DNA of 64,000 nt from Candidatus Gastranaerophilales bacterium (GTDB lineage Bacteria > Cyanobacteriota > Vampirovibrionia > Gastranaerophilales > Gastranaerophilaceae), in the NCBI GenBank assembly GCA_944322745.1, contig CALUPV010000001.1:248001-312000 (forward strand). Direction: 5' to 3'. Position numbers and translations under genes: made by a program. This document shows positions 34,599 to 62,989 of this stretch, piece by piece. Within the stretch, counting starts at the first letter, position 1. The number at the start of each line of letters is the position of its first letter. A model generated the notes under the pieces. The model ran no database searches and was not told the origin of the DNA. It saw only the letters and a list, made by a program, of their open reading frames with translations.

Positions 34599-35039
34599 AT
34601 GAATTATTTAGATATAAAACTAAAAGGCATTAATCAAAATGGGGAAGAAAAAGAATATAAACTTTATGATTTTAAAGGAGAAAATTTAATAGTTTATTTT
34701 TATCCAAAAGATGATACGCCCGTATGCACAAAAGAAGCACAAGAATTTAGAGATGCTATGACAGAGCTAAAAAAATACGCACAAATAATAGGAGTCAGTG
34801 ATAATGATATAAACGACCATTTAGATTTTCAAAAAAAATATAACTTAAATTTCATATTACTATCTGACACTGATAATAAATTAAAAAATACCTTTCAGAA
34901 ACACGATATTCACATTCAGAACTTGCATCGAGCAACTTTTATACTCGATAAAGAAGGTCAAATTATAAAATATTGGAATAAAGTTGATGTTGATGAACAC
35001 ATAGAGGATATTCTTAAATTCTTTAGGGATAAAGAATAA
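34599..35039 (+). CDS. bcp: Thiol peroxidase, Bcp/PrxQ-type peroxiredoxin
   Basis: 146 residues of the AhpC/TSA fold: LIVYFYPKDDTPVCTKEAQEF with peroxidatic Cys in PVCTKEA, IIGVSDNDINDH, and the C-terminal strand TFILDKEGQIIKYW. The usual resolving Cys five residues later is absent here (the next positions are KEAQEF), so it may work as a 1-Cys enzyme or use a partner thiol. Electrons would come from thioredoxin. Strong AAAGGAGG site before the ATG. It precedes the Tat/Lar operon by ~107 bases. Confidence 0.9.
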   Translation: MNYLDIKLKGINQNGEEKEYKLYDFKGENLIVYFYPKDDTPVCTKEAQEFRDAMTELKKYAQIIGVSDNDINDHLDFQKKYNLNFILLSDTDNKLKNTFQKHDIHIQNLHRATFILDKEGQIIKYWNKVDVDEHIEDILKFFRDKE

Positions 35040-35146: not shown

Positions 35147-36388
35147 ATGAAAAGACGAGATTTCATAATAAATTCTGCATTAACGTTAGGCGGAACTATA
35201 CTATTGTCAGGATGCGGAAAAAATGAAATAAAAAAATCCGAATATCAAGTAGTAAGAAGAAAATTTTCCAACACAGATACTCCATTAATAGCACTTGGCT
35301 GTATGAGGCTTCCTATACTCAACGGAAAGATAGATATGGCTGAACTTGACAAAATGGTAGAATATGCTATGACACATGGTGCAAACTACTTTGATACAGC
35401 ATATATGTATGTTGATGGAAAATCTGAAAATGCAATTGGTGAAGTCTTAAAAAAATATCCCAGAGAGAGCTTTATATTAGCAGATAAATGCCCTGCATAT
35501 CTTGTAAAAACACAAACAGATACAAGAAGACTGTGTGAAGAACAGCTAAAGAAGTGTCAAGTAAAATATTTTGACAATTATATGGTTCATAATATTAATA
35601 AAAACACTATAAATAATTATCGTGATAATAAAATGTATGATGAACTTGTTAAACTAAAAAAAGAAGGTTTGGTAAAACATATAGGTTTTTCTTTCCATGG
35701 CGACCCACAAATGCTAAGGGAAGTTATAAATGAACACAAATGGGATTTTTGCCAATTGCAGATTAATTATCTTGACTGGGAAGTAATTAATGCAGATGAA
35801 TTATATAAAATAGCTGATGAAGCAGGTGTTCCTGTTATTGTTATGGAACCTTTAAGAGGCGGAGTACTATGCAATCTTCCAACGAAAGCTGCTGAGAAAC
35901 TAAAACAAGAATGTCCTAATGATACACAAGCTTCATTTGGTTTAAGATGGGTTGCAAATAAGAAAAGAGTATTCACAATCTTAAGCGGAATGAGCAATTT
36001 ACAACAACTTAAAGAAAATGTTAATACCTTTGTAAACTACAAAGCAATGACAGAAAAAGAAGAACAAGTAGCATACGAAATTGCAAAAATTATACAATCA
36101 GGTGGAGCAATAAGCTGTACAGCTTGCAAATACTGCCTTGAAGTTTGTCCGAGAGGAATAAATATACCTGCCATATTTGGATTATACAATATGTATAAAG
36201 GGAATAATGCACCAAATGCAAAATTTATGTTTGTATATAATTATAATGCCCTTGAAGAATCAACAAGAGCAGACAAATGTATAAAATGCGGTTTGTGTAA
36301 TAAAAACTGCCCGCAAAACCTTGATATTCCTGAACTTTTAGCCCAAGTAGACAAAACAGTAAAAGAAGTTGAAAAGAGTATGAATTAA
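35147..36388 (+). CDS. Tat-exported aldo/keto reductase with C-terminal ferredoxin domain
   Basis: 413 residues. The start MKRRDFIINSALTLGG is a twin-arginine signal (Arg3-Arg4) and ends in LLSGC (Cys23), a lipobox, so it is likely a lipoprotein on the outside of the inner membrane. An aldo/keto reductase barrel follows: ALGCMRLP, NYFDTAYMYVDGKSE (catalytic Asp/Tyr), IGFSFHGDP, VMEPLRGG. Two [4Fe-4S] motifs sit at the C-terminus: CTACKYCLEVCPRG and CIKCGLCNKNCPQN. The ferredoxin part suggests electrons come from a partner rather than free NADPH. The next genes encode a membrane polyferredoxin, TatA and TatC, which fits exactly. Substrate unknown. AGAGGG lies upstream of the ATG. Confidence 0.85.
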   Translation: MKRRDFIINSALTLGGTILLSGCGKNEIKKSEYQVVRRKFSNTDTPLIALGCMRLPILNGKIDMAELDKMVEYAMTHGANYFDTAYMYVDGKSENAIGEVLKKYPRESFILADKCPAYLVKTQTDTRRLCEEQLKKCQVKYFDNYMVHNINKNTINNYRDNKMYDELVKLKKEGLVKHIGFSFHGDPQMLREVINEHKWDFCQLQINYLDWEVINADELYKIADEAGVPVIVMEPLRGGVLCNLPTKAAEKLKQECPNDTQASFGLRWVANKKRVFTILSGMSNLQQLKENVNTFVNYKAMTEKEEQVAYEIAKIIQSGGAISCTACKYCLEVCPRGINIPAIFGLYNMYKGNNAPNAKFMFVYNYNALEESTRADKCIKCGLCNKNCPQNLDIPELLAQVDKTVKEVEKSMN

Positions 36389-37665
36389 TGAAAAAAGTAT
36401 ATAAAACAAGATTAATAATAGCAATTATTGTTTTATTACTGGCTATTTTGGGTATATATGGAGTTTTTTATTCCGTAGAAATTTTTGATATTCAGATTTT
36501 ACCATTATTGCAAAGATGTATTGTTGATTTTTCAATTATTGCATTATCATTACTTACAGGTATTATAATTTTAACTGTATTATTTGGACGTATATATTGT
36601 TCTGTAATCTGCCCATTAGGAATAATTCAAGAACTTATAAGTATATTATTTTTTGATTAAAAAAGAAAAAATAAATATACAAAAAATTATTCAATAAAAT
36701 ATTTTATATTAGCGATTTCATTAGGGATTTTATTTGGTGGAAGCGCAACATTTATAAGATATATAGAACCATATACATATTTTGGTTCAGCATTTACGTT
36801 TTCAATTGTCGGAATAATTGCATTACTAGGTATAATTATTCTAATATTTTTCAAAAACAGGTTTTTCTGTACAAATATTTGTCCGGCAGGAACAATACTT
36901 GGTCTTATATCAAAATTTTCAAGAAATAAAATCTATATAGAGAAACATAATTGTATTTCCTGTAGCAACTGCGAGAGCAAATGCCCAGCTGGCTGTATAG
37001 ATTCAAAAAATAAAACAGTTAATAATGAAACCTGTATAAAATGTTTAAAATGTATTGAAATATGTCCTAAAGGTGGTATCAAATACGGAAAAGAACCAAA
37101 AGAACAAATAAAATTTAGTATACAAAGACGAAAAATAATAATAAGTACAGCAGTTTTAGCTGTTTTTGGCTCAATGATTAAAACAGGAATAATAATCAAA
37201 AATAAAATCGCAGAAAAATATAAAGACATAATTTTACCACCCGGTGCAGAAAGCGAAGAAAGATTAATAAATACCTGTTACAATTGCAATCTATGTGTTA
37301 AAAATTGCCCAACTAAGATTATTGTAAAAGCAAATAACGAATTCCCGACAATTCATATTGATTATAAAAATGGAAGCTGCGAAAAAGAATGTAATAAATG
37401 CTCACAAGTTTGTCCGACAGGTGCTATAAAAAGACTTAGTATAGAAGAAAAACAAAAAACAAGAATAGCAATGGCAATGATAGAAAAAGAAAATTGTATT
37501 GAATGCGGACTATGTCAATCAGCATGCCCATATGGAGCAATAATTATAACTAAAGAAGGAACCAGCATTAATGCAGAAAAATGTATAGGCTGCGGAGCTT
37601 GTAAAAAAGCGTGCAATTCTGATGCAATAGAGATTTATGCCGTAAAAAAACAAAGTATAATATAG
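36388..37665 (+). pseudogene. Membrane polyferredoxin (NapH/NapG-like) split by one in-frame TAA
   Basis: The frame from the ATG at 36388 hits TAA at 36658-36660 (codon 91), then continues open in the same frame to 37665, 425 codons in all. The first part has membrane helices and RIYCSVICPLG. Beyond the stop come further helices, NRFFCTNICPAG, CISCSNCESKCPAG and CIKCLKCIEICPKG. A last helix after RRKII follows, then LPPGAESEERLINTCYNCNLCVKNCP and three more CX2CX2CX3C-type motifs. This is a NapH-type membrane part joined to a NapG-like ferredoxin, a quinol-to-periplasm electron relay. No ATG occurs between the stop and 37174. No other damage is visible. Fresh nonsense mutation, sequencing error (AAA to TAA would do it) or read-through are all possible. 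Confidence 0.85.
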
Positions 37666-37684
37666 TTGAAAGGAGAATAATAAA

Positions 37685-37900
37685 ATGTCACTGGGAATAA
37701 CAGAAATAATATTAATCTTAGTTGTTATAATTTTACTTTTCGGAGGAAAGAGAATTCCGGAAATAGCCAGAGCACTCGGTAGGGCATCATATGAATATAA
37801 AAAAGCCAAAGACGTTATAAAAAAAGAAACAGAAGAACTTAAAAATGTAATAGAAAATAATCAAGAAAAGCCGGAAGAATATAAACCGCAAGATGTATAA
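37685..37900 (+). CDS. tatA: Sec-independent translocase protein TatA
   Basis: 71 residues: short N-terminal segment SLGITEIILILVVIILLFGG forming one membrane helix, the FGGKRIPEIARALG hinge and amphipathic helix, then a charged tail. Typical TatA/E. It forms the pore-like part of the twin-arginine system for folded, cofactor-bearing proteins. AAAGGAG precedes the ATG; its last bases overlap the start of tatC. Encoded right after two likely Tat-related iron-sulfur proteins. No TatB is evident, so a minimal TatAC system is probable. Confidence 0.95.
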   Translation: MSLGITEIILILVVIILLFGGKRIPEIARALGRASYEYKKAKDVIKKETEELKNVIENNQEKPEEYKPQDV

Positions 37901-38636
37901 AATGAGCGATATGGAAGATAAAGATGAAAATATAATTTCTCATATTGAAGCATTCAGAGAAATGTTATTAAAAAGTTTTGTTTGTTTGGGAATATTTATA
38001 ATTCCTATGCTTTTTATTGCGCCTAAATGCTTAGATTTACTGATAAAATTACTAATTAAGGATAATAATATATCTCTTAACTATTTTTCGCCGGTAGAAG
38101 TCTTCATAATACAAATAAAACTGGCATTTATTCTTGATATAATACTTTGCTTTCCGTATATAGCAAGACAAATATGGAAATTTTTTGCACCTGCACTTTA
38201 TCAACACGAAAGAAAATTTATAAAATCAATTGTTTTTACCTCGACAACACTATTTATTTCCGGTGTAATATTTTGTTTATTTGTTATTTTACCTCTTATT
38301 ATAGATTTTGGGATAAGTTTTACATCTGAAAAGATAAATGCAGTGTTAGGAATTTCAAATATTGTTAATTTATCATTTTGGCTTACACTATCTTTCGGTT
38401 TAATGTTTCAATTGCCAATAATAACATATTCTTTAATAAAATCAGGGTTTGTAGAATACAAAACATTTGAAAATATAAGACCATATGTTGTTGTAATAAT
38501 ACTCGTTATAGCCGGAATACTAACTCCGCCTGATATTATAAGCCAAATATTACTGTTTACGCCTACATATATGTTATTTGAAGCAGGATTATTTTTTTCA
38601 AAATTAAGAATTAAGAAAGACAAAAATAATGGATAA
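37893..38636 (+). CDS. tatC: Sec-independent translocase protein TatC
   Basis: About 245 residues with six membrane helices. Recognisable segments: IEAFREMLLKSF (family 'HL.ELR.R' position), FSPVEVFIIQIKLAF, the QIWKFFAPALYQHERKFI loop, and GLMFQLPIITYSLIKSG, GILTPPDIISQILLFTPTYMLFE. It binds the twin-arginine signal. The frame may begin at 37893 or at the second ATG (MSDMEDKDE, 37902). Overlaps tatA upstream and larB downstream, marking one operon. Confidence 0.93.
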   Translation: MYKMSDMEDKDENIISHIEAFREMLLKSFVCLGIFIIPMLFIAPKCLDLLIKLLIKDNNISLNYFSPVEVFIIQIKLAFILDIILCFPYIARQIWKFFAPALYQHERKFIKSIVFTSTTLFISGVIFCLFVILPLIIDFGISFTSEKINAVLGISNIVNLSFWLTLSFGLMFQLPIITYSLIKSGFVEYKTFENIRPYVVVIILVIAGILTPPDIISQILLFTPTYMLFEAGLFFSKLRIKKDKNNG

Positions 38637-39309
38637 ATATATAGAACTTGATTTTGCAAAACTTGATACAGATAGAGTAAAAAGACGAGGATACTCAGAA
38701 GCTGTTTTTTGTGAATGTAAAAATGATGAGCAATTAATAAAAATATTCCAATCATTCAAAGATATTGGTTCCAATGTAATAGGAACCCGTTGTTCCAAGA
38801 ATCAATATGAAATACTAAAAAATAAATTTGGAGAAATTATAAAATACAATGAACAAGGAAGAGTTGTAACACTAATACAAAAAGAAATTGAAAGAATTGG
38901 AGAAATTGCAGTTTGTACAGGAGGAACAGGCGATATTCCTGTTGCGGAAGAAGCTGCAGAAACAGCTGAATTTTACGGGAGCAATGTAAAAAAATATTAT
39001 GATATAGGTATTGCAGGCATACACAGACTTTTTGATAAAATTGATGAAATAAAAAAAGCAAATGCAATAATAGTAGCAGCAGGAATGGAAGGTACATTAG
39101 GAGGAATAATTGCAGGACTTGTTGATATACCTGTTATAGCACTACCTACTTCTGTAGGTTATGGAAGCAGTTTTAAAGGACTTTCAGCACTTCTTACAAT
39201 GTTAAACTCTTGTGCAGAAGGAATGAGCGTTGTAAATATTGACAACGGCTATAATGCGGGATATAGTGCCTGTCAAATAAACAGATTAATTGAAAGGAAA
39301 AATAAATGA
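38629..39309 (+). CDS. larB: Nickel-pincer cofactor biosynthesis protein LarB
   Basis: 226 residues. The N-terminal ~100 residues (LDTDRVKRRGYSEAVFCE, then TRCSKNQYEILKN) and the C-terminal AIR-carboxylase-like domain (AVCTGGTGDIPVAEEAAETAEFYG, VAAGMEGTLGGIIAGLVDIPVIALPTSVGYG) are those of LarB. LarB carboxylates and hydrolyses nicotinic acid adenine dinucleotide to give pyridinium-3,5-biscarboxylate mononucleotide, the first step of the nickel-pincer nucleotide. Overlaps tatC by 8 bases and larC by 4. Confidence 0.93.
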   Translation: MDKYIELDFAKLDTDRVKRRGYSEAVFCECKNDEQLIKIFQSFKDIGSNVIGTRCSKNQYEILKNKFGEIIKYNEQGRVVTLIQKEIERIGEIAVCTGGTGDIPVAEEAAETAEFYGSNVKKYYDIGIAGIHRLFDKIDEIKKANAIIVAAGMEGTLGGIIAGLVDIPVIALPTSVGYGSSFKGLSALLTMLNSCAEGMSVVNIDNGYNAGYSACQINRLIERKNK

Positions 39310-40061
39310 ATTTATATTTTGAATGTAATTCAGGTATTTCAGGAGATATGTCTGTTGGAGCATTATTAGACTTGATAGATAACGAAAATATTTTAGATAA
39401 TGCCCTTTCATCAATGAAACTTGATAATGAATTCCAATACAAAATTACAAAGAAGATGGTAAATGCAATCTCAACCACAGATTTTAATGTTATTTTACCT
39501 TTACGCAATCATCACGAGCACAATTATGAGCATAACCACGAACATCACCACGAGCATAGAAATCTGGATGATATAAATAAAATTATTGACAAAGCAAATA
39601 TTAATCAAAATGCAAAGAACTTAGCAAAAAAAATATTTAAAATAGTTGCAGAAGCAGAAAGTAAAGTTCATAATAAAGATCTTTCAGAAGTTCATTTTCA
39701 TGAAGTTGGTGCAATTGATTCAATTATTGATATTGTAAGTTTTGCAGTTTTATATGATTATCTAAAACCGAATAAAACGTATTTTTCAACACTAACAGAA
39801 GGTCAAGGAACCGTAACGTGCCAGCATGGTACACTATCAGTACCGGTTCCGGCAGTTTGTGAAATAGTTTCAAAATACAAAATTCCAATTAAAATAACAA
39901 ATAATGAAGGAGAAATGATAACTCCAACGGGCGCAGCAATTGTTGCAGCATTATATACAGGAGAACAAATCCCTGAAAAAATCATTATAGAAAAAGTAGG
40001 ATATGGTAGAGGTAAAAGGCCCTATAAAAATCCTATTTTAAGAGTTATGAGAATAAACTAA
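39306..40061 (+). CDS. larC: Nickel-insertion protein LarC, N-terminal part only (LarC1-like)
   Basis: 251 residues. NLYFECNSGISGDMSVGALLDL opens the family; a His-rich stretch (HHEHNYEHNHEHHHEH) follows at ~63-80 and likely binds nickel; then SEVHFHEVGAIDSIIDIVSF, TEGQGTVTCQHGTLSVPVP and TPTGAAIVAAL. LarC inserts Ni into the dithiocarboxylated pyridinium in a CTP-dependent step. Full-length LarC is about 400 residues; here the frame stops at ILRVMRIN, just where LarC2 should begin, and the next gene starts 10 bases on. In Lactobacillus plantarum LarC1 and LarC2 are joined by a ribosomal frameshift, but no LarC2 frame exists here. Confidence 0.9.
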   Translation: MNLYFECNSGISGDMSVGALLDLIDNENILDNALSSMKLDNEFQYKITKKMVNAISTTDFNVILPLRNHHEHNYEHNHEHHHEHRNLDDINKIIDKANINQNAKNLAKKIFKIVAEAESKVHNKDLSEVHFHEVGAIDSIIDIVSFAVLYDYLKPNKTYFSTLTEGQGTVTCQHGTLSVPVPAVCEIVSKYKIPIKITNNEGEMITPTGAAIVAALYTGEQIPEKIIIEKVGYGRGKRPYKNPILRVMRIN

Positions 40062-40071
40062 AGGAGATATT

Positions 40072-40974
40072 ATGCATTTAGGAAACGGAATAATATGCCC
40101 AACAACAGGAATACCTATGCTAATGTTAGCAGGAATAACAGCTTATTATGCTTTTAAAAAAGCTAAAACTGATTTTAACAAAGAGAAAATCCTATATACA
40201 ATAACTTTAACTATTTTAGTATTTACTCTGCAAATGATAAATTTTTCAATACCGCACACAGGTTCAAGCGGGCACATAATCGGAGCAATGTTACTTGCAG
40301 TACTAATTGGTCCTTATGTTGGATTTCTTGCAATGTGTAGTATTCTACTTATTCAAGGAATATTCTTTGCAGACGGAGACCTTTTAGCACTTGGATGTAA
40401 CATAATAAATATGGGAGCTTTTGCCAGTTTTGCAGCATATCCTTTAATTTATAAACCTTTTTCAAAAAACAATAAAGAATTTATAGGAGCAATACTATCT
40501 TCAGTTTTTGCATTACAATTAGGAGCTTTGGCAGTTGTAATAGAGGGAGTATTATCAGGTTCAATAGCATTAAATTCAATAGCGAATTTCTCAGGTTTAA
40601 TGCAAATAATACATCTTCCTATTGGTATAATAGAAGGTCTTATAACGGGAATAGTAATTCTTGCAGTTAAGAAAACCAATTACAAAAAAGCATCGATTTC
40701 ATTTGGTTTGTTATCGTTGATATTTGCTTCTTTTATATTTAAATTTGCTTCTACAAAACCTGATGGACTTGAATGGTCATTATTAAAAATAGAAGATTCA
40801 ATTATTCCACAAATTCAAAGTCAAATATTCATAATATCTGAAACATTACAAAATAAAACAGCAATTTTGACCAATATAGAACCTGTATATTCAAATTTAT
40901 CAGGCATCTTAATACTTGGTTTTATAATGTATTTACTATGTTTCTTTATGAATAAACAAAAAGTTAAAAATTAA
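40072..40974 (+). CDS. Nickel/cobalt ECF transporter permease, NikM/CbiM with PDGLE domain
   Basis: 300 residues, about eight membrane helices. MHLGNGIICPTTG is the family's metal-binding N-terminus (the N-terminal Met-His coordinates Ni/Co). Further signatures are LQMINFSIPHTGSSGHIIGAM, LIGPYVGFLAMCSILLIQG and FFADGDLLALGCNIINMG. The C-terminus has TKPDGLEWSL, the PDGLE element of NikMN/CbiN-type fusions. Between larC and larE it is most simply a nickel importer for the pincer cofactor, like LarM in Lactobacillus. The ATPase and T subunits are not in the window. AAAGGAG precedes the ATG. Confidence 0.88.
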   Translation: MHLGNGIICPTTGIPMLMLAGITAYYAFKKAKTDFNKEKILYTITLTILVFTLQMINFSIPHTGSSGHIIGAMLLAVLIGPYVGFLAMCSILLIQGIFFADGDLLALGCNIINMGAFASFAAYPLIYKPFSKNNKEFIGAILSSVFALQLGALAVVIEGVLSGSIALNSIANFSGLMQIIHLPIGIIEGLITGIVILAVKKTNYKKASISFGLLSLIFASFIFKFASTKPDGLEWSLLKIEDSIIPQIQSQIFIISETLQNKTAILTNIEPVYSNLSGILILGFIMYLLCFFMNKQKVKN

Positions 40975-41748
40975 ATGAAAAAAAAATTTGATAAATTAAA
41001 ACAATATTTAAGAGAACTGGATAAGCAAGGCCTATGTCTTGCTTTTTCAGGCGGAATAGACAGCTGTGCACTTTTATATTTATGTAAAGATTTAAATGTT
41101 ATAGCTGTGACATTTAAATCAATTTTTCAAACAGAACAAGAGATTAATGAAGCAAAAGAATTTTGCAATTTTTATGGAATAAAACAAAAAATAATAGAAT
41201 ATTATCCGCTTGAAAATAACATAATAAGAAATAACCCCAAAGATAGATGCTATCATTGCAAAAAACTTATTTTTTCAAAACTTAAAGAATATGCAGGAAA
41301 AAGAATAATACTGGACGGAACAAATGCAGATGATACAAAAACATATAGACCCGGACTTAAAGCATTGAAAGAATTAGGAATTTATTCCCCATTTGCTGAT
41401 TTTGGAATTACAAAAAAAGAAATCATAGATTTTTCAAAAGAAGAAAGTATAAAGAACTATGCAAAACCGTCTTCACCTTGTATAGCAACACGTTTCCCAT
41501 ATAACACTTTATTGAATGAAGAATTAATAGAAAAAGCAAAAAAAGGAGAAGAAATAATAAAAAATTTTGGTTTTACAAACTGCAGATTTAGAATCCACGA
41601 TAATATAGCCAGAATTGAAATTAATCAAGAAGAAATTGAAAAATTCATAAGATACAGAAAAGATATTTTGAATAAACTAAAAGTTCTGGATATAAAATAT
41701 ATCACCTTAGATTTGGAATGTTTACGCAGCGGAAGTATGGATATATAA
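40975..41748 (+). CDS. larE: Pyridinium-3,5-biscarboxylate sulfurtransferase LarE
   Basis: 257 residues. PP-loop CLAFSGGIDSCALLYL; then DRCYHCKKLIFSKLKEY, LDGTNADDTKTYRPG, KPSSPCIATRFPYN and the ending LRSGSMDI, all typical of LarE. It adenylates the pyridinium carboxylates and transfers sulfur. The Cys in SSPCIATRF is where the sacrificial Cys of L. plantarum LarE lies; together with the CxxC of RCYHCK it makes three cysteines, as in LarE proteins that hold a [4Fe-4S] cluster and recycle sulfide. Which mechanism applies cannot be settled by eye. It starts at the base after the permease stop. Last gene of the operon. Confidence 0.92.
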   Translation: MKKKFDKLKQYLRELDKQGLCLAFSGGIDSCALLYLCKDLNVIAVTFKSIFQTEQEINEAKEFCNFYGIKQKIIEYYPLENNIIRNNPKDRCYHCKKLIFSKLKEYAGKRIILDGTNADDTKTYRPGLKALKELGIYSPFADFGITKKEIIDFSKEESIKNYAKPSSPCIATRFPYNTLLNEELIEKAKKGEEIIKNFGFTNCRFRIHDNIARIEINQEEIEKFIRYRKDILNKLKVLDIKYITLDLECLRSGSMDI

Positions 41749-54734: not shown

Positions 54735-56180
54735 TTATTTTAAATCATTACTCTTTTCAAGAAGTGCATTTATTATTTTCTTTGCTATTTTAGGATTTGC
54801 AATTGTAGAATTACCGCCGATACAACCACCTTCACAGCACATAACTTCTATTAAATTGCCATCTTGGCAAGCACCATCTTTTGCATACTTTTTCAATTGT
54901 CTTATAGTTTCCTTGGTTAAACCATCAATATAACAAGGTTTTGCCTTTTTTCCATCAGGGAGCAATGAATTAACAGCACCTGCTACACCGCAGGTTACGC
55001 CATAATTACGGCCTTGTCTTGAACTTTCAACAGAATATTCACATTCATTCATTTCTAAAATCTCAATCTTTCTTCCGACAAAAACTGCACCAAGCTCATC
55101 TGCATTCATTACGTAATCTATTTTATCATTTAGCTGAACTTCTTTCCGCTTAGCAACACAAGGACTTATAAATACAGTCACGGCATCCGGATATTTTTCT
55201 TTTACTATCTCAGCAGTATAGAACAATGGTGTTTTTGTATCAGATACATATGGTTTTATTTCAGGTAGATGTTTTTCTATAAGATTATTATAACCGGCAC
55301 AACATGATGTGGTCATAAAAGTTGCACCTTTTTCCATTCTTTCAATAAATTCAGCAGACTCTTTCCTTGTTGTAACATCAGCACCTTGAGCAACCTCTAC
55401 AACATCATAAAATCCTGCTTTTATCATTGCAGACTTTAACTGGAAAATATTTCCCGGAAATTGACCTGCAATAGCAGGAGCAAACATTGCAACGACTTTT
55501 TTCCCAATTTTTATAGCTTTTAAAATATCAATCAATTGACTTTTTTCATTAACAGCACCAAATGGACATGCAGCAACACATTTACCGCAAGATATACATT
55601 TTTCAAAATCTATAACCGCAGTTCCGTTATCTCCTTTTGAAATAGCGCCAACAGGACATGCCTGTTCACAAGGAACAATCAAACGTACAATTGCATTATA
55701 CGGACAAGCGCTAATACACATACCGCAATTTTTACATTTTGAAGCATCTATATTACTTTTTCCGCCTGCAATTTCAATTGCGCCAAACCTACATGTTTTC
55801 TCGCAAGAACGAGCAACACAGCCCTGACACAAATCTGTTACGTATACTCTTGAAGGAACACATCCCTTACAAGCTGCATCTATAATCGTCAACGGATTTT
55901 CTTCTATTTCTTTTCTATCAAGTGATTGAGTTGCAAAATCTTCTAATTTTTCTGTTTCATCAAGATTTTCAAGAGAAAAACCCAAGTCTGCAATTATTCT
56001 GTCTTTTATAATTTCACGTTCTTTATAAATACAACATCTATATGGGACTTCGCAATCCTTTGGTCTCATTTGAAAAGGAATTGAAGCTGTGTTTTTCTCA
56101 AAATCATTAGAATCAAAAGCTTGCACAAGTCTAATTAAAATATCTCTTTTTATATGAATTGATTGACTATTGTTATTCAT
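54735..56180 (-). CDS. [FeFe] hydrogenase, monomeric type (group B-like)
   Basis: 481 residues from the ATG at 56180, which has TTGGTGA upstream and overlaps the previous gene. Cys-rich N-terminus with CQGCVARSCEKTC, CKNCGMCISACPYN and CISCGKCVAACPFG ([4Fe-4S] clusters), then the H-cluster domain: L1 TTSCCAGYNN, L2 FISPCVAKRKE, L3 EVMCCEGGCIGGNST. All four H-cluster cysteines are present, so catalysis (H2 evolution or uptake with ferredoxin) is likely. HydE/F/G maturases are not in the window. Last gene of the rex cluster. Confidence 0.88.
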   Translation of the reverse strand: MNNNSQSIHIKRDILIRLVQAFDSNDFEKNTASIPFQMRPKDCEVPYRCCIYKEREIIKDRIIADLGFSLENLDETEKLEDFATQSLDRKEIEENPLTIIDAACKGCVPSRVYVTDLCQGCVARSCEKTCRFGAIEIAGGKSNIDASKCKNCGMCISACPYNAIVRLIVPCEQACPVGAISKGDNGTAVIDFEKCISCGKCVAACPFGAVNEKSQLIDILKAIKIGKKVVAMFAPAIAGQFPGNIFQLKSAMIKAGFYDVVEVAQGADVTTRKESAEFIERMEKGATFMTTSCCAGYNNLIEKHLPEIKPYVSDTKTPLFYTAEIVKEKYPDAVTVFISPCVAKRKEVQLNDKIDYVMNADELGAVFVGRKIEILEMNECEYSVESSRQGRNYGVTCGVAGAVNSLLPDGKKAKPCYIDGLTKETIRQLKKYAKDGACQDGNLIEVMCCEGGCIGGNSTIANPKIAKKIINALLEKSNDLK

Positions 56181-56436
56181 TTTCACCAACCTTTTTTTCA
56201 ATAGCCAATAGTACCTTTTCAATGGTTGCAGATGATATAACTTCTTCTCCAACTTTTACATATGGTGCCTTTGAATGCTTATCATTTGACGAACATTGTC
56301 CTAAACATAAACTTGGTTTGACTATAACTTTATCACCGTATTTTTGAGGGATCAAATCATATAATTCATTTAAAAAAGAGCTTCCCATAACAAAACACGT
56401 AGTTCCCGAACATATTCTTACTTCTAATGTTTCCAT
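56173..56436 (-). CDS. [2Fe-2S] thioredoxin-like ferredoxin (NuoE-like)
   Basis: 87 residues: LEVRICSGTTCFVMGSSFLN (Cys pair) and VKPSLCLGQCSSN (second Cys pair), the four ligands of a thioredoxin-fold [2Fe-2S] protein. It likely feeds or takes electrons from the hydrogenase, whose start overlaps its stop. AAGGGG before the ATG. A shorter sister lies at 59.4 kb. Confidence 0.85.
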   Translation of the reverse strand: METLEVRICSGTTCFVMGSSFLNELYDLIPQKYGDKVIVKPSLCLGQCSSNDKHSKAPYVKVGEEVISSATIEKVLLAIEKKVGENE

Positions 56437-56481
56437 ATATACCCCTTAACAAGCATTTAATATAACTATTTTATCATATTT

Positions 56482-57639
56482 TTAAATATATCTTACATCG
56501 ACTTTTTTTGTATACTTTTCTTCTAAAATTTCAACTATTCTTTTTACAACATTTCTTCTTATTTCTATTTCTACAGGCATATTAGGATTATAATGAGCTT
56601 GATTTAATTTAACGCCGACCATAAATTTAATTTCATCACTATCTAATAAAAAATTAATTAATTTACCTGCAGCATCATTTTCTGCTATACCTTTTTCAAG
56701 ATACTCCATGGTCTTAGTTAAAGTCAAAATACCTTCGGTAATTAAATCTATCCCTTTCATATAAGAAATTCCGGGAAGTTTTCCGACATTTAAATTTCTA
56801 TCTGTTTCTATTTCCAGGTTTAACTCTCTTGCAATAAGATTAGCTGTAGTTCCTCCTGCAATTGCTTTTTTACCGTTAAAGCTGTAGAAACTCTTGGCAT
56901 ATAATGCATCTTGTTCCATATCATAAGGAGGACCTGTAAATACTATAGATTTTCTAGGTTCTCTAAAATAGAAGCAAACGACAGATGTATCATCTTTTAA
57001 CTTGTGGTCCGGTTCAATTAATTCAATCTGTCTCACAATATGTTTTGTCAGTTCGTCAGAAGATATAAATGGTGTTTCCTTTAATTTATTTAAGACTATC
57101 TCAATAAGACCTTCTCTTCTAACGCCTAATCTTAGTTCTTTCGTACCTAAAGCAGCTTGAGTTACACCATCAGAACAGAATATGATTCTATCATCTTTCT
57201 CTAATTTTATATGATATAAATGCATATGACGATTTGGAAAAGTTTTGGACGTAATTACTCTTTCTTCAGGATTAAGAATTTGATTATTTCTAATCCATAA
57301 AAACTGTGGATTACCTTCTTCTACTATCTTTGCATTTCCTTCTTCATCGCAGTCTATAGCAGAAAATGTAGAATAGCTAATTTTTCTTACTTTACAAACA
57401 GGTAAGGAATTCATAATTGTTTCACAGGCTACTTTTATATCAGATTGAGCCTCTATAAATTTCAATAGCATAGTAGCAGTCATGCTCGCTAAAATATTTG
57501 CTTTTATTCCACTTCCTAAACCATCAGACAATATACCTATAACTCGACCATTGTCTTTATACCTTTTTGAAATAAAATAATCGCCATAAGCATTCTGGTT
57601 ATATTTTTTTTCTTGACTGCATCCTACATCTATGAACAT
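56482..57639 (-). CDS. SpoIIE-type PP2C serine phosphatase
   Basis: 385 residues. PP2C SpoIIE core: GRVIGILSDGLGSGIKANIL (metal Asp), YSTFSAIDCDEEGNAKIVEEG, DRIIFCSDGVTQAALG and LKDDTSVVCFYF. A C-terminal ~150-residue region (KAIAGGTTANLIARELNLEIE; IDLITEGILTLTKTMEYLEKG) has no recognised domain. Such phosphatases are found beside sensory [FeFe] hydrogenases and are thought to relay the hydrogen signal by dephosphorylating a protein. Its start overlaps the stop of the sensor gene. Substrate unknown. Confidence 0.85.
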   Translation of the reverse strand: MFIDVGCSQEKKYNQNAYGDYFISKRYKDNGRVIGILSDGLGSGIKANILASMTATMLLKFIEAQSDIKVACETIMNSLPVCKVRKISYSTFSAIDCDEEGNAKIVEEGNPQFLWIRNNQILNPEERVITSKTFPNRHMHLYHIKLEKDDRIIFCSDGVTQAALGTKELRLGVRREGLIEIVLNKLKETPFISSDELTKHIVRQIELIEPDHKLKDDTSVVCFYFREPRKSIVFTGPPYDMEQDALYAKSFYSFNGKKAIAGGTTANLIARELNLEIETDRNLNVGKLPGISYMKGIDLITEGILTLTKTMEYLEKGIAENDAAGKLINFLLDSDEIKFMVGVKLNQAHYNPNMPVEIEIRRNVVKRIVEILEEKYTKKVDVRYI

Positions 57640-59363
57640 TATTTATCCTCTTCGGTATTACTTTCATAGTCTTTTGCTATTGAATCCAATAATACTTCAG
57701 TTTCGACCATATGTTCACCTAATAAACAAGCTATTTCTTGAACAGTTGCTATATTTTTGGCAATTACATCTCTTGCCTTTTTGGCAATTTTTTCTCTATC
57801 CATTTCAGATTTTGTTACATCTGTTATAACGGCACCGGCGATCTCCCCTGATTCAATAGTAAAAGCACTTATATCATATAATTTATCACCTATGGCATAG
57901 TGTTCTTTGTGTATATCTTGTCCTGAACGTAATGCTGTTTTAAAAATATCGCCAAATGGCACTATTCTTTCAATAGCAGCACCTTTTAATCCTTCTTCTC
58001 TTGATGAAAAAACATCATACATATCAGAACAAAACATCTTAAGAAAAGCATCATTAGTTTCTAATATATTATAATTTTTATCAACCATAACAACAGCAGC
58101 AGGCATACATCTAACCAAAGCGGCAGCTTTTCTTACTGCTATTTTTCGCATATATGATACACACATAGATGTTTCTGCGTCTCCGGCAATTAACGCATTC
58201 ACAAAATCTCGACATGTTGAATACCCGCATCCACTGCAATTTAATTCATCTTCTTGTGAATGTTTACTTATTCTTTTTAGTGCTTCATCTATTTGTTCTA
58301 TTGTATATTTACGTTTTTCAACAGGTTGTGGTTTATAATTTTCACTTACTACAACGTCAGGTTCTTTAGGAACTGTATCACGATATTTTGTTGTCGTTAA
58401 AACATCAGAAGTTACTGCTATAATACCCCTTTCCGTTGACAGACAAGGACCATTTACACAACCACCTTCACAACCCAATGCTTCTATAAATATTTTTCTT
58501 GTTAATTTATCTTCTTCTATACCATCCAATGCTTTATCAAAATTATTTATAGAACTTATACTAATCAATGAAACTTTACTTTCATCAACCCCTACTTTTC
58601 GAATTGTTTCATTCATGCCGCCTTCAATAGGATATAGCGCCCCCTCATATGCACCTTTAGGAACAAAATCAGAACCTTCAAGTTCTTCTATATCATGAAT
58701 ATTAATATCCTCATCTTTTAACCAAAGATTTAATTCTTCAAATGTCAAAGACGCATTAATTAATTCTTGGTGAGAGTCAGATTCCTTCTTTTTTGCTATA
58801 CAAGGACCAATAAAGACAATAGCTATATCATCACCAAATGTCTTTTTAAGTAAACCGGCATGAGTCAACGCAGGTGAAACTATAGGTACAATATTTTTTG
58901 CAAACTTTGGTTTATACATTCTTATATAATCAACAATAACAGGACAAGCACTTGATATAAGCATCTCATTTTTGTCTGAAGAATTAATAATTTTTGCACA
59001 TTCTATAGATACTTCCTGAGCACCTAAGGCCGTCTCACTAACACCTTCAAAACCTAATTTTTTAAGTGCAGAAATCATTTTTTCTTTTTTCACACTATAT
59101 ACTCCAACCCAACTTGGAGCCAAAGATACATATACCTTCTTATTCTGAAGAAATAATTTTTTTACTTTATCAATATCATTTCTTACTCTCTTAGCACCTG
59201 AAGGACAAACCATAACACAGTGACCGCAGGCAACACACCTTTCTCCTATAACATATGCACTGTTATCTTGTATTTTTATTGCTTTTACGTGACATTCTCT
59301 AATACACTTATAACAATCATGACACTCATTTTTTAGTGTATAAACAGGATATAGATTATTCAA
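57639..59363 (-). CDS. [FeFe]-hydrogenase-like sensor with PAS domain (HydS-like)
   Basis: 574 residues. N-terminal two-cluster ferredoxin (CHDCYKCIRECHV; CVACGHCVMVCPSG), then a modified H-cluster domain: L1 SSACPVIVDY (TSCC-type pair reduced to one Cys), L2 IGPCIAKKKES, L3 ALGCEGGCVNGP. After that, a CSGCGYSTCRDFVNALIAG four-Cys [4Fe-4S] domain and a C-terminal PAS domain (MPAAVVMVDKNYNILETNDAFLKMF). This is the layout of sensory group C hydrogenases, which sense H2 or redox state and signal through a neighbouring kinase or phosphatase; a PP2C follows at once. TTG start with GGAAG upstream. Confidence 0.87.
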   Translation of the reverse strand: MNNLYPVYTLKNECHDCYKCIRECHVKAIKIQDNSAYVIGERCVACGHCVMVCPSGAKRVRNDIDKVKKLFLQNKKVYVSLAPSWVGVYSVKKEKMISALKKLGFEGVSETALGAQEVSIECAKIINSSDKNEMLISSACPVIVDYIRMYKPKFAKNIVPIVSPALTHAGLLKKTFGDDIAIVFIGPCIAKKKESDSHQELINASLTFEELNLWLKDEDINIHDIEELEGSDFVPKGAYEGALYPIEGGMNETIRKVGVDESKVSLISISSINNFDKALDGIEEDKLTRKIFIEALGCEGGCVNGPCLSTERGIIAVTSDVLTTTKYRDTVPKEPDVVVSENYKPQPVEKRKYTIEQIDEALKRISKHSQEDELNCSGCGYSTCRDFVNALIAGDAETSMCVSYMRKIAVRKAAALVRCMPAAVVMVDKNYNILETNDAFLKMFCSDMYDVFSSREEGLKGAAIERIVPFGDIFKTALRSGQDIHKEHYAIGDKLYDISAFTIESGEIAGAVITDVTKSEMDREKIAKKARDVIAKNIATVQEIACLLGEHMVETEVLLDSIAKDYESNTEEDK

Positions 59364-59366
59364 TTT

Positions 59367-59597
59367 TTACTTCCTTAATATTTCAATAATTTTTTCCGGA
59401 TTCATTTCATAATAAATTGTACCATCTATTTCAATAGTTGGTCCTTTTTCACAAAGATTTTTACATCTTGAACCATATATTTCAACTTGAGTACTTAGAT
59501 TATTTTCTTTTATATAGTCTTCTATAAATCTTAAATTATCAGCATTTCCTCTTGCGAAACAGGCGCTGCCCATACATATTTTTATTTCTTTTACCAT
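59367..59597 (-). CDS. [2Fe-2S] thioredoxin-like protein
   Basis: 76 residues: EIKICMGSACFARGNADNLR and YGSRCKNLCEKGPTIEI supply the four Cys of a thioredoxin-fold [2Fe-2S] cluster. It sits between rex and the sensor gene with 0-3-base gaps and probably reduces or reports to the sensor. GAGGATAAT before the ATG. Confidence 0.85.
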   Translation of the reverse strand: MVKEIKICMGSACFARGNADNLRFIEDYIKENNLSTQVEIYGSRCKNLCEKGPTIEIDGTIYYEMNPEKIIEILRK

Positions 59598-60226
59598 TAA
59601 TTATCCTCTACACTATGATTTACCGTAAACTGTAAAAAATTTCCTATTAAATTTTCATTCCAGACCTGAACATTTTTAGGAACAGATAAAACACACGGAG
59701 TAAAATTCCATATATATCTAATTCCTGCTTTTACAATAAAATCAGTAACCTCTTGTGCATTTTTCCGAGGCACTGTTAAAATTACTATCTTTGCATCATT
59801 TTTCTCAGCTATCTTTGGCAAGTCATTTAAATGGAAAATATCTTTTCCATTAATACTTGTCCCAACTTTTTCAGGACTTATATCGAATAATGCTGATATA
59901 TTAAATCCATAGGCTTCAAAATTATCATATTTCGCAAGCGCCATGCCCAAATTTCCGGACCCGACAATAAATGCTGTTTTTACTTTTTTAAATTTCAATG
60001 TTTCTTCAATCAAAATCTTTAGTTCTTTTACCTTATATCCAACTTTACACTTGCCTTTATAATGCAAAAGGGCAATATCCTTCCTCACCTGAGTATTATC
60101 AACATGTAATAACTCAGCAATTTGAGGGCTTGAAATATATTCAATACTTTTTTCTATATAATCAGTCAAAATACTATGATATAAAGTTAATCTATTTATT
60201 ACTTTATCAGGAAGATTCTTCTCCAT
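59597..60226 (-). CDS. rex: Redox-sensing transcriptional repressor Rex
   Basis: 209 residues from the ATG at 60226 with AAAGGTT upstream; a longer frame to 60280 adds a Cys-rich leader without a site. N-terminal winged helix (LPDKVINRLTLYHSIL; SPQIAELLHVDNTQVRKDIA) and a Rossmann domain (TAFIVGSGNLGMALAKYDNF) that reads the NADH/NAD+ ratio. Rex usually represses adhE and hydrogenase genes; here it heads the hydrogenase cluster and adhE lies just upstream, so it likely controls both. No clear Rex operator was found by eye. Confidence 0.93.
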   Translation of the reverse strand: MEKNLPDKVINRLTLYHSILTDYIEKSIEYISSPQIAELLHVDNTQVRKDIALLHYKGKCKVGYKVKELKILIEETLKFKKVKTAFIVGSGNLGMALAKYDNFEAYGFNISALFDISPEKVGTSINGKDIFHLNDLPKIAEKNDAKIVILTVPRKNAQEVTDFIVKAGIRYIWNFTPCVLSVPKNVQVWNENLIGNFLQFTVNHSVEDN

Positions 60227-60294
60227 AAAATAACCTTTTCTGAAACAAACACATTTATAACAAATTATATTAAAAAACACAAGTTTAAAAAATA

Positions 60295-60326
60295 AAAAGA
60301 GGAACGCATTTCTACGTTCCTCTTTT
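60295..60326 (-). terminator. Terminator of adhE
   Basis: Perfect 12-bp stem aaaagaggaacg / cgttcctctttt with an 8-base loop, 11 bases after the adhE stop on the minus strand, so it separates adhE from the rex cluster. Confidence 0.85.
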
Positions 60327-60337
60327 GTTTTGTTTTA

Positions 60338-62989
60338 CTACACTACACCGTTATAAGCATCAATATAGATTTTCTTAATATCTTCCATTAACGGATATAC
60401 CGGGTTAGCGCCTGTACATTGATCATCATATGCTAATTCGACTAATTCATCCAAATTATCCATAAATGTCTTTTCATCAACGCCAAAGTCTTTAATTGAA
60501 TTTGGAAGATTGATTGATTTCATTAATTTATCAACTGCTTCTAACAACAATTTAACTTTTTCATCATCATTCTTACCGCCCAATCCAAGTTCATCTGCGA
60601 TTTGACCATATTTTGTTTTTGCACAAGGGAACTTGTATTGTGGGAATATAGCTTGCTTTTTAGGAGCATCAGATGAATTATATTTAATAATTTGTCTGAT
60701 TAATAAAGCATTAGCTACACCGTGAGGAACATGATACATTGCACCAAGCTTATGTGCCATTGAGTGACATAATCCTAAGAATGAGTTAGCAAATGCCATA
60801 CCTGCTATAGTTGCTGCATAGTGCATTTTTTCTCTTGCAACAGGATCATTAGCACCTTCATTATATGAACGTTCTAAATATCTGAATACCAGCTTTGTTG
60901 CTTCTAAAGCATTTGAATTTGTAAAGTTTGTAGCCATACAAGAAACATATGCTTCAATAGCGTGAACTAATGCATCAATACCGGATGCAGACGTTAAACC
61001 TTTTGGCATTCCGTCAACAAAGTTTGGATCTACAATTGCCATATTCGGTGTTAAAGCATAATCTGCAATTGCATATTTAACATGAGTTTCATCATCTGTA
61101 ATAATAGCAAATGGAGTTACTTCTGAACCTGTACCAGAAGTTGTCGGAATAGCAACCATCATTGCTTTCTTGCCCAATTCTGGAATAGCACAAATTCTCT
61201 TTCTGATATCCATAAATCTCATTGAAATATCTTCAAAGTTTGTATCAGGTTGTTCATACATTAACCACATAATTTTAGCAGCATCCATAGGAGAACCGCC
61301 ACCTAATGCAATGATTACATCAGGTTCAAAAGGTCTCAATATAGAAAGTGCTTGATTAATTGTTGATAATGTTGGATCCGGTTTTACATCAAAGAATACT
61401 TCATGTTCAATACCGATTTCATCTAATACATTTGTAATACTATCAACAGCACCTGAATTAAACAAGAATCTGTCTGTAACAATAAATGCACGTTTTTTAC
61501 CAGCCAACTCACGGAGAGCCAAGTCTATAGCACCTCTCTTGAAGTATACTTTTGAAGGAACTTTAAACCATAACATATTCTCTCTCCTTTCAGCAACTGT
61601 TTTGTAGTTCAATAAGTTTTCAACTCCAATATTTCCGGATATTGCATTTTTACCCCAAGAACCACAACCAAGTGAAAGAGATGGTTCTAATTTAAAGTTA
61701 TATAAATCACCAATACCGCCTTGTGATGAAGGAGAGTTTATTAATATTCTGCAAGCAGGCATTTTTTCTGCATATTGGTCAATTCTTGTTTTTGATCTTT
61801 CATCTGTATATAAAACAGCTGTATGACCTGCACCGCCTTTTATAACAAGTTCATATGCTATTTCTGCAGCTTTTTCGAAGTTCTTTGCTCTATACATTGT
61901 AAGAATTGGAGATAATTTTTCTCTTGAGAATGGATCATCCCAATCTACAGCCGGTCTTTCTACCAACAATATTTTAGCATTATCAGGAGTTTTAAATCCT
62001 GCAAGTTCAGCTATCTTATGAGCCGGTTGACCAACTATAGCAGGATGAGCAGTTCCTCTCTTAGGATCAATGAAAGGAAGATCTACCATTTTCTTTTGCT
62101 CTGCTTTATTTACGAGATATGCACCTCTGTATTCAAATTCTTTTTTAACTTCTTCATAAACACTATCAACAACAACTACAGATTGTTCTGAAGCACAAAT
62201 CATACCATTATCAAATGTTTTTGACATTAATATTGAAGAAACAGCCATTTTTATATCAGCAGTTTCATCAATAACTGCTGATGTATTACCAGGACCTACA
62301 CCTAATGCCGGATTACCTGAAGAATATGCTGCTTTAACCATTCCAGGACCACCTGTTGCAACAATACACGATATTGATGGGTGTTGCATTAAAGTATTTG
62401 ATAATTCAATAGATGGAACATCAATCCAACCGATAATATCTTCGGGAGCACCTGCTTTAACTGCCGCTTCTAATACCAATTTTGCTGCAGCAATTGTACA
62501 TTTTGTTGCTCTCGGGTGTGGTGAAAATATAATACCATTTCTTGTTTTTAAAGCTATTAATGATTTAAAAATAGCTGTTGATGTTGGGTTTGTAGTAGGA
62601 ATAATACCTGCTATTACACCCAAAGGTTCAGCTACTATTTTAATACCATTTGCTTTATCTTCTTTTATTATTCCACATGTTTTTGCATTTTTATGTTTAT
62701 TGTAAATGTATTCAGAAGCAAAGTGATTTTTAATAATCTTATCTTCTAATACGCCCATGCCTGTTTCTTCAACGGCCATTCTTGCAAGTGGAATTCTAGC
62801 TTTATCAGCAGCTGTAGCTGCTGCCTTAAAAATAGCATCTACTTTTTCTTGAGAGAATGTTTCATAGATTTTTTGAGCTTTTTTTACTTTAGAAATAAGA
62901 ACTTCTAATTGATCAAGTGTTTCAACAACATCTGACTTATTCAAAGCTTTTTCTAAAGATTCAACAGTCTTCTTACTTTTCGTTGTCAT
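60338..62989 (-). CDS. adhE: Bifunctional aldehyde/alcohol dehydrogenase AdhE
   Basis: 883 residues, full length. The N-terminal aldehyde dehydrogenase half (~1-450) has GIIPTTNPTSTAIFKSL, TGGPGMVKAAYSSG and the catalytic Cys in NGMICASEQSVV. The C-terminal iron alcohol dehydrogenase half (~470-883) has ALGGGSPMDAAKIMW, PTTSGTGSEVTPFAI and the iron-binding His in GLCHSMAHKLGAMYHVPHG. It turns acetyl-CoA into ethanol with two NADH and forms spirosomes in E. coli. AAAGGATTTG before the ATG. Likely a Rex target. Confidence 0.97.
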   Translation of the reverse strand: MTTKSKKTVESLEKALNKSDVVETLDQLEVLISKVKKAQKIYETFSQEKVDAIFKAAATAADKARIPLARMAVEETGMGVLEDKIIKNHFASEYIYNKHKNAKTCGIIKEDKANGIKIVAEPLGVIAGIIPTTNPTSTAIFKSLIALKTRNGIIFSPHPRATKCTIAAAKLVLEAAVKAGAPEDIIGWIDVPSIELSNTLMQHPSISCIVATGGPGMVKAAYSSGNPALGVGPGNTSAVIDETADIKMAVSSILMSKTFDNGMICASEQSVVVVDSVYEEVKKEFEYRGAYLVNKAEQKKMVDLPFIDPKRGTAHPAIVGQPAHKIAELAGFKTPDNAKILLVERPAVDWDDPFSREKLSPILTMYRAKNFEKAAEIAYELVIKGGAGHTAVLYTDERSKTRIDQYAEKMPACRILINSPSSQGGIGDLYNFKLEPSLSLGCGSWGKNAISGNIGVENLLNYKTVAERRENMLWFKVPSKVYFKRGAIDLALRELAGKKRAFIVTDRFLFNSGAVDSITNVLDEIGIEHEVFFDVKPDPTLSTINQALSILRPFEPDVIIALGGGSPMDAAKIMWLMYEQPDTNFEDISMRFMDIRKRICAIPELGKKAMMVAIPTTSGTGSEVTPFAIITDDETHVKYAIADYALTPNMAIVDPNFVDGMPKGLTSASGIDALVHAIEAYVSCMATNFTNSNALEATKLVFRYLERSYNEGANDPVAREKMHYAATIAGMAFANSFLGLCHSMAHKLGAMYHVPHGVANALLIRQIIKYNSSDAPKKQAIFPQYKFPCAKTKYGQIADELGLGGKNDDEKVKLLLEAVDKLMKSINLPNSIKDFGVDEKTFMDNLDELVELAYDDQCTGANPVYPLMEDIKKIYIDAYNGVV

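Follow-up and report, generated by a model that had tools for sequence, protein, structure and literature searches.

Here, we describe an eight-gene operon that combines an exported iron-sulfur (Fe-S) aldo/keto reductase (AKR) and a polyferredoxin with two genes of the twin-arginine translocation (Tat) system and with lar genes, whose products make the nickel-pincer nucleotide (NPN) cofactor of the lactate racemase LarA. The operon lies at positions 35147-41748 on the plus strand of a 64,000-nucleotide stretch of DNA (the window; contig CALUPV010000001.1, positions 248,001 to 312,000) from a genome assembly of Candidatus Gastranaerophilales (GCA_944322745.1; 2.04 Mb, 34 contigs, 94% complete), a group of gut-dwelling relatives of cyanobacteria. 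The closest named records belong to Candidatus Avigastranaerophilus faecigallinarum and other Candidatus Gastranaerophilales (AKR 94% identical). The gene combination is real, conserved and unusual, and the presence of orphan lar genes beside an exported enzyme in a genome where LarA was not found points to a new user of the nickel cofactor. We tentatively propose that the lar product serves the exported module, a reading that we place a little short of an even chance. In the open-licence literature we found nothing on lar genes in Gastranaerophilales or on Tat in Melainabacteria, nor did we find the combination of AKR, Tat, polyferredoxin and lar in print.

Profile searches backed the identities of all eight genes, and the arrangement given in a preliminary description of this DNA, on one strand with overlaps or short gaps, holds throughout. 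The first gene (35147..36388) encodes AKR-Fd, a predicted exported AKR with a C-terminal ferredoxin domain for two [4Fe-4S] clusters (Aldo_ket_red, 144.6 bits; Fer4 dicluster), and overlaps the polyferredoxin gene by 1 bp. The polyferredoxin is read as a NapH-like N-terminal part up to an in-frame TAA (36388..36660; Fer4_5) and the remainder of the NapH-NapG fusion in the same frame (36661..37665; a second Fer4_5 and Fe-S motifs). After a gap of 19 bp follow tatA (37685..37900; TatA_B_E, 55.3 bits), tatC (37893..38636; TatC, 183.4 bits), larB (38629..39309; NF033503, 275.6 bits against a cut-off of 175) and larC (39306..40061; 251 aa; TIGR00299, 193.7 bits against 90), successively overlapping by 8, 8, and 4 bp. 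A 10-bp gap separates larC from a gene for a CbiM/NikM-type permease with a PDGLE (CbiN/NikN-like) domain (40072..40974; CbiM, 165.2 bits), which directly abuts larE (40975..41748; TIGR00268, 253.5 bits against 150). Consensus scans returned fewer promoter-like sites than chance (33 versus 49.8 in shuffled sequence) and terminator-like sites within chance (4 versus 2.7, standard deviation 1.7), so that a single transcript is suggested by gene spacing only. An Rfam search of the window gave six tRNAs and no match inside the operon. Upstream lies a peroxiredoxin gene (34599-35039), with a same-strand counterpart directly upstream of the operon only in loci L084, L086, and L087.

The order of the operon genes is conserved beyond chance. 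Across 49 LarC loci in relatives, the order AKR-polyferredoxin-tatA-tatC-larB-larC on one strand is preserved at 33, which answers favorably the question of conservation raised in the preliminary description, and all eight genes are kept at 20; cbiM is present in 29 of the 49 stretches (25 of the 33 with the six-gene order) and larE in 31. At five of the 16 loci lacking the six-gene order, less than 1 kb of sequence is available ahead of the first module gene, and eight of the 16 have at least 7.7 kb of sequence with no AKR, which lies elsewhere in several of these genomes. Presence across the 89 genomes of the family, compiled by hand from the profile-search results, shows LarC and AKR together in 44, LarC only in 3, AKR only in 6, and neither in 36, whereas AKR and TatC occur together in 50, AKR only in none, TatC only in 5, and neither in 34; the AKR count includes copies split by frame breaks and excludes three decayed remnants without TatC. 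Among the nine genomes with only one of the two, LarC or AKR, three have the locus truncated by a contig end (G037, LarC only; G014, with larB at the contig edge, and G042, AKR only). The three AKR remnants (L107-L109) lie in genomes without a TatC or LarC match, two of them accompanied by larE remnants, suggesting that decayed copies lose parts of the module together. Genomes G038 and G052 retain polyferredoxin-tatA-tatC but gave matches to neither AKR nor LarC. The operon tatC is the only TatC matched in the window genome, which, together with TatC in all 50 AKR-bearing genomes of the family, fits the earlier proposal that Tat is kept mainly for this module.

The missing LarA, first remarked on for the window, extends to the whole genome, where no PF09861 match was found, and with it the possibility that a LarA elsewhere accounts for the lar genes of this genome loses its footing. 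Across 147 genomes, including this one, the same search gave four weak matches, one of them just above the cut-off; all four are DUF362 proteins by PF04015, an assignment that a Pfam scan repeated for three of them, and we therefore rejected a hidden LarA. A LarA-like client in the operon gaps of relatives was likewise rejected, by eye, for two gene clusters, c8, which lies between tatC and larB at 16 loci, and c7, found at 18. In one survey, about 15% of genomes are reported to carry larB, larE, and larC without larA, with no known user of the cofactor in them (PMC11796402).

The Lar proteins themselves are well marked, LarB and LarE both exceeding the curated NCBIfam cut-offs of the lactate racemase system. 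LarE carries the cysteine motifs RCYHC and PCIATR, i.e., CxxC followed by a later cysteine, the pattern described for [4Fe-4S] LarE (PMC9283937). Our operon shares with the Lar system LarB, LarE, and LarC1 above curated cut-offs and an adjoining nickel-type permease, but differs from it in that the genome has no match to LarA and no LarC2, and in that the lar genes share their operon with tat genes and an exported redox module. The preliminary description had identified LarC correctly but overlooked that only the LarC1 half is present: the protein covers positions 1-233 of the 375 in the profile, and no PF01969 match to LarC2 was found elsewhere in the genome. LarC1 alone is likewise what all 50 LarC-bearing Gastranaerophilales-type genomes carry (47 of the family plus G094, G098, and G099, the window genome included), whereas among the other ten LarC genomes the protein is full length in nine and split into separate halves in one. 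In an alignment with 51 short LarC sequences (among them the window copy, that of L093 and the cut copy of L255), LarC1 retains 36 of the 38 positions conserved in the LarC1 halves of full-length copies, and 19 positions conserved in full-length LarC2 are missing. Solved structures are available for full-length LarC and for LarC2 alone, and we take the CTP site of LarC to lie in LarC2. Nickel insertion by LarC in NPN synthesis is reported to be CTP dependent (PMC11796402). With respect to nickel supply, the permease resembles the CbiMNQO/NikMNQO energy-coupling factor importers of nickel and cobalt in its CbiM and PDGLE domains but differs from them in that no CbiQ match was found in the whole genome. 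The c7 cluster found near larE or larC in the 18 loci encodes a small protein rich in cysteine, about 190 aa long (e.g., L045:4763-5359 and L047:5969-6532), which is possibly a metal or Fe-S helper.

AKR-Fd carries a twin-arginine signal (MKRRDFI) and a lipobox (LSGC). Its AlphaFold model (mean predicted local distance difference test score, pLDDT, of 86.2) found aldo/keto reductases as top matches in the PDB using Foldseek (E of about 1e-14), and many of these structures contain NAD(P)(H). Residues D83, Y88, K114, and H148, which we take to be the AKR catalytic tetrad, are invariant across 50 aligned homologues. The C-terminal SGMS...Q..EN-type motif is retained, but the positions of the S-N pair and the stacking tyrosine, which presumably contribute to the nucleotide site, differ from those of the aligned PDB AKRs; Fe-S AKRs that lack a Tat signal show the same pattern. 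We compared these residues among 38 lar-linked AKRs, five others with a Tat signal (one of which, L134, is counted as lar-unlinked though its genome has full-length LarC elsewhere), 60 non-Tat AKRs and the AKR of locus L139, leaving three of the 107 aligned AKRs outside any group, and rejected a residue signature for NPN binding because none was detected. In eight relatives (L050, L053, L057, L059, L060, L066, L069, and L070), though not in the window, a gene that by eye is flavodoxin-like lies directly upstream of the AKR, several of the eight having an N-terminal hydrophobic stretch, and its position fits redox chemistry outside the cytoplasm. A protein that by eye is like flavin mononucleotide (FMN) reductases, with a twin-arginine signal and lipobox, stands beside the lar genes as a second such exported candidate in two relatives, at L048:7266-8000 and L051:12273-13007.

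The polyferredoxin shows the dual Sec-Tat architecture within a single frame: a NapH part, an internal twin arginine (QRRK) ahead of a hydrophobic stretch in the 3' part, and then NapG-like cysteine motifs. Its NapH/NapF/NapG-type matches, obtained by reading the frame (36388-37665) with the stop marked and searching the two parts separately, fall below the NCBIfam cut-offs, and Fer4_5 was found in both parts. A NapH-NapG fusion polyferredoxin from the delta proteobacterium MLMS-1, reported to be dual Sec-Tat (PMC5449189), shares these three elements with our protein, which in turn differs in that AKR, TatAC, and lar genes accompany it in one operon and in being interrupted by a stop in this assembly. 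The NapH/NapG-like identity given in the preliminary description stands; what it had overlooked is the in-frame TAA at codon 91 (36658-36660), which is not present in the four relatives compared. By homology, electron input to the polyferredoxin would be of the NapH type; quinol may be the donor, and one UbiA-family gene, which bears on quinone synthesis, was detected in the genome.

We propose that the operon would encode a single redox module working outside the cytoplasm, along with the machinery that equips and exports it. AKR-Fd would be a Tat lipoprotein and the NapH-NapG fusion would carry electrons across the membrane to its own Fe-S clusters, with TatA and TatC exporting both, while LarB, LarE, and LarC1 would make an NPN-type cofactor in the cytoplasm from nickel taken up via CbiM, for insertion into a Tat cargo of the module before export. 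As Tat translocates folded, cofactor-loaded proteins, loading before export is the likeliest reason for the linkage. The AKR is the likeliest recipient, given the lack of NAD(P)H outside the cytoplasm and the nature of NPN as a bound hydride carrier derived from nicotinate. Binding of the lar product by the AKR itself is nevertheless more speculative, and we regard it as unlikely; the direction of electron flow through the module is also more speculative. The complete proposal, in which the exported AKR would use NPN loaded in the cytoplasm instead of NAD(P)H, with electrons passing via its own Fe-S clusters and NapH-NapG, is doubtful in our estimate.

The association between AKR and lar genes is not confined to the family. 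A gut contig labelled uncultured Alphaproteobacteria (L139) carries AKR(Tat)-LarC-LarE-NapHG-CbiM-LarB with full-length LarC, as well as a cupin, CMD, FMN reductase and a Tat-DUF362 protein; no tat gene was matched within the available stretch. In a tree with Bacteroidota as outgroup, the L139 AKR falls outside the clade that unites Gastranaerophilales with clostridial and other cytosolic-type AKRs (FastTree support for that clade, 0.999), and thus the AKR-lar link either arose more than once or is old and often lost. LarC occurs in six of 12 genomes of the order of L139; of the five LarC loci of this order examined besides L139, L255 runs larC-larE-permease-like-NapHG, its larC being shortened at the beginning and its NapHG split over two frames, and the remaining four have larB-larC(-larE) with no AKR or NapHG in the stretch. 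Overall, larC lies near 19 of 80 named AKR loci, and the 54 loci at which AKR-Fd has no credible Tat signal (L140, L141, and L144-L195), covered over 3-21 kb each, gave no lar, tat, or polyferredoxin match. We know of no exported AKR operon beside cyanobacterial lar genes, and the LarC of Synechocystis is presumably full length, unlike the LarC1-only protein here. The LarA-less lar genes of cyanobacteria present the same orphan situation in a related lineage, LarB, LarC, and LarE of Synechocystis being reported to produce NPN for no known client (PMC11796402).

Several observations weigh against the proposal that the lar product serves the exported module, and the interpretation offered in the preliminary description is, as a whole, only partly supported, its suggestions of electrons from the quinone pool and of a cofactor enzyme acting on the same hydroxy/oxo acid being conjectural. 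The absence of LarC2 from all LarC-bearing genomes of the Gastranaerophilales type makes true NPN production less than certain, and the co-occurrence counts and Fisher tests ignore phylogeny. No nucleotide-site change specific to lar-linked AKRs emerged from the residue comparison, and the polyferredoxin frame is interrupted in this assembly. Parts of the module also occur apart from one another. Genomes G053, G069, and G073 (AKR 44-47% identical) have AKR-polyferredoxin-tatAC with no LarC match, and G063 (85% complete) has AKR and TatC with no LarC match; G023 retains tatAC and larBCE without a polyferredoxin next to them or an AKR match anywhere in the genome, and G087 keeps larC and a shortened larB match with no TatC and no close AKR. 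A plasmid collection search further yielded pairs in Bacteroidota (Parabacteroides distasonis and Bacteroides finegoldii) that share with our operon a Tat AKR (32-34% identity) beside a NapHG polyferredoxin (29-30%), but with an AKR about 50 aa longer and no lar genes in the stretch. Given these pairs and the LarC-less relatives, exported AKR-Fd can probably work without NPN. Finally, AKR and lar genes are not neighbors at L045, L056, L062, L065, L071, and L079, although at least 8 kb of upstream sequence is available in each.

These six loci, and the exported AKR pairs without LarC or without lar neighbors, would be expected if the exported redox genes and the lar genes were merely co-inherited without functional coupling, an explanation to which we give little credence in light of their joint presence and absence over the 89 genomes and of the reshuffled module in the alphaproteobacterial contig. 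About equally improbable is that LarB, LarE, and LarC1 yield a variant cofactor, either a nickel-free dithio-nucleotide or one with another metal. The consistent restriction to LarC1 in this group against full-length or split LarC elsewhere, the missing conserved LarC2 positions, and the CTP dependence of nickel insertion as reported (PMC11796402) would favor such a variant, but the near-complete retention of the conserved LarC1 positions and the frequency of cbiM in loci with the six-gene order argue against it. It is more improbable still that the module is simply decaying in the window genome, its electron path broken by the nonsense codon in the polyferredoxin. That stop is absent from the relatives compared, and stops or splits also occur in AKR, polyferredoxin, tatC, larC, or larE matches at several other loci; however, the reading frames of the remaining seven genes are intact and score well against their profiles, and one stop codon in an assembly of many contigs could be an artefact.

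A more serious, if still unlikely, alternative is that the lar arm serves another NPN enzyme, DUF362 proteins in several lineages and another protein here, with the AKR acting in the same pathway but not binding NPN. DUF362 and LarA belong to the same Pfam clan (CL0471), and the one paper that we found in the open-licence literature mentioning DUF362 in connection with Lar uses it as an outgroup (PMC11770544). The predicted model of the DUF362 protein of L139 (L139:9028-9984; pLDDT of 76, from six sequences only) resembles LarA, all 14 PDB matches at E<=0.001 being LarA-family proteins, with modest TM-scores by query of 0.38-0.50. All six aligned DUF362 proteins have a histidine and a lysine ten residues apart and a second histidine 16-17 residues further on, namely H173, K183, and H200 in L139, and a spacing of 16 in four and 17 in one of the five other members; LarA has H174, K184, and H200, so that its spacing of 10 and 16 compares with 10 and 17 in L139 (LarA positions from PMC7583248). 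Proteins with this H-x9-K-x15/16-H spacing were seen at L139, L131, L154, L164, L194, L226, and L256. Over 55 genomes outside the family (f1) and outside G094, G098, and G099, LarC and DUF362 occur together in nine, LarC only in one, DUF362 only in two, and neither in 43. DUF362 also lies within the lar clusters of G081 (L226) and L139, and a DUF362-like open reading frame with a weaker match (27% by tblastn) adjoins larB in L256. Against this, DUF362 was not matched in 29 of the 47 LarC-bearing genomes of the family, within which the AKR is the steadier partner of LarC, and DUF362 with the same H/K/H residues is present in G150, a genome of unstated completeness that gave no LarC match. A second search (alignment A2), which had no positive control, found DUF362 in none of 12 genomes. 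No PF04015 match was found in the window genome (G000) itself; DUF362 is therefore not a candidate client here, and we rejected it as a universal one. From the predicted fold and residue spacing, DUF362 proteins may nonetheless be overlooked NPN enzymes.

Elsewhere in the window, positions 54735-62989 on the minus strand hold, by eye, a series of genes for [FeFe]-hydrogenase-like iron-sulfur proteins, a SpoIIE-like phosphatase, a Rex-like regulator and AdhE.

Through the operon described here, lar genes without LarA are tied to one particular exported enzyme, its electron carrier and its exporter, both family-wide and in one alphaproteobacterial contig, and the family evidently manages with only half of LarC. 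In other genomes without LarA, DUF362 deserves testing as a family with the LarA fold. For such genomes, our proposal that the lar product serves the exported module provides a concrete candidate for the NPN user that can be tested with a handful of genes. If the exported AKR does use NPN in place of NAD(P)H, it would be, to our knowledge, the first NPN enzyme with a fold other than that of LarA, the first outside the cytoplasm and the first performing net redox chemistry, and its cofactor would be produced by an insertase consisting of LarC1 only.

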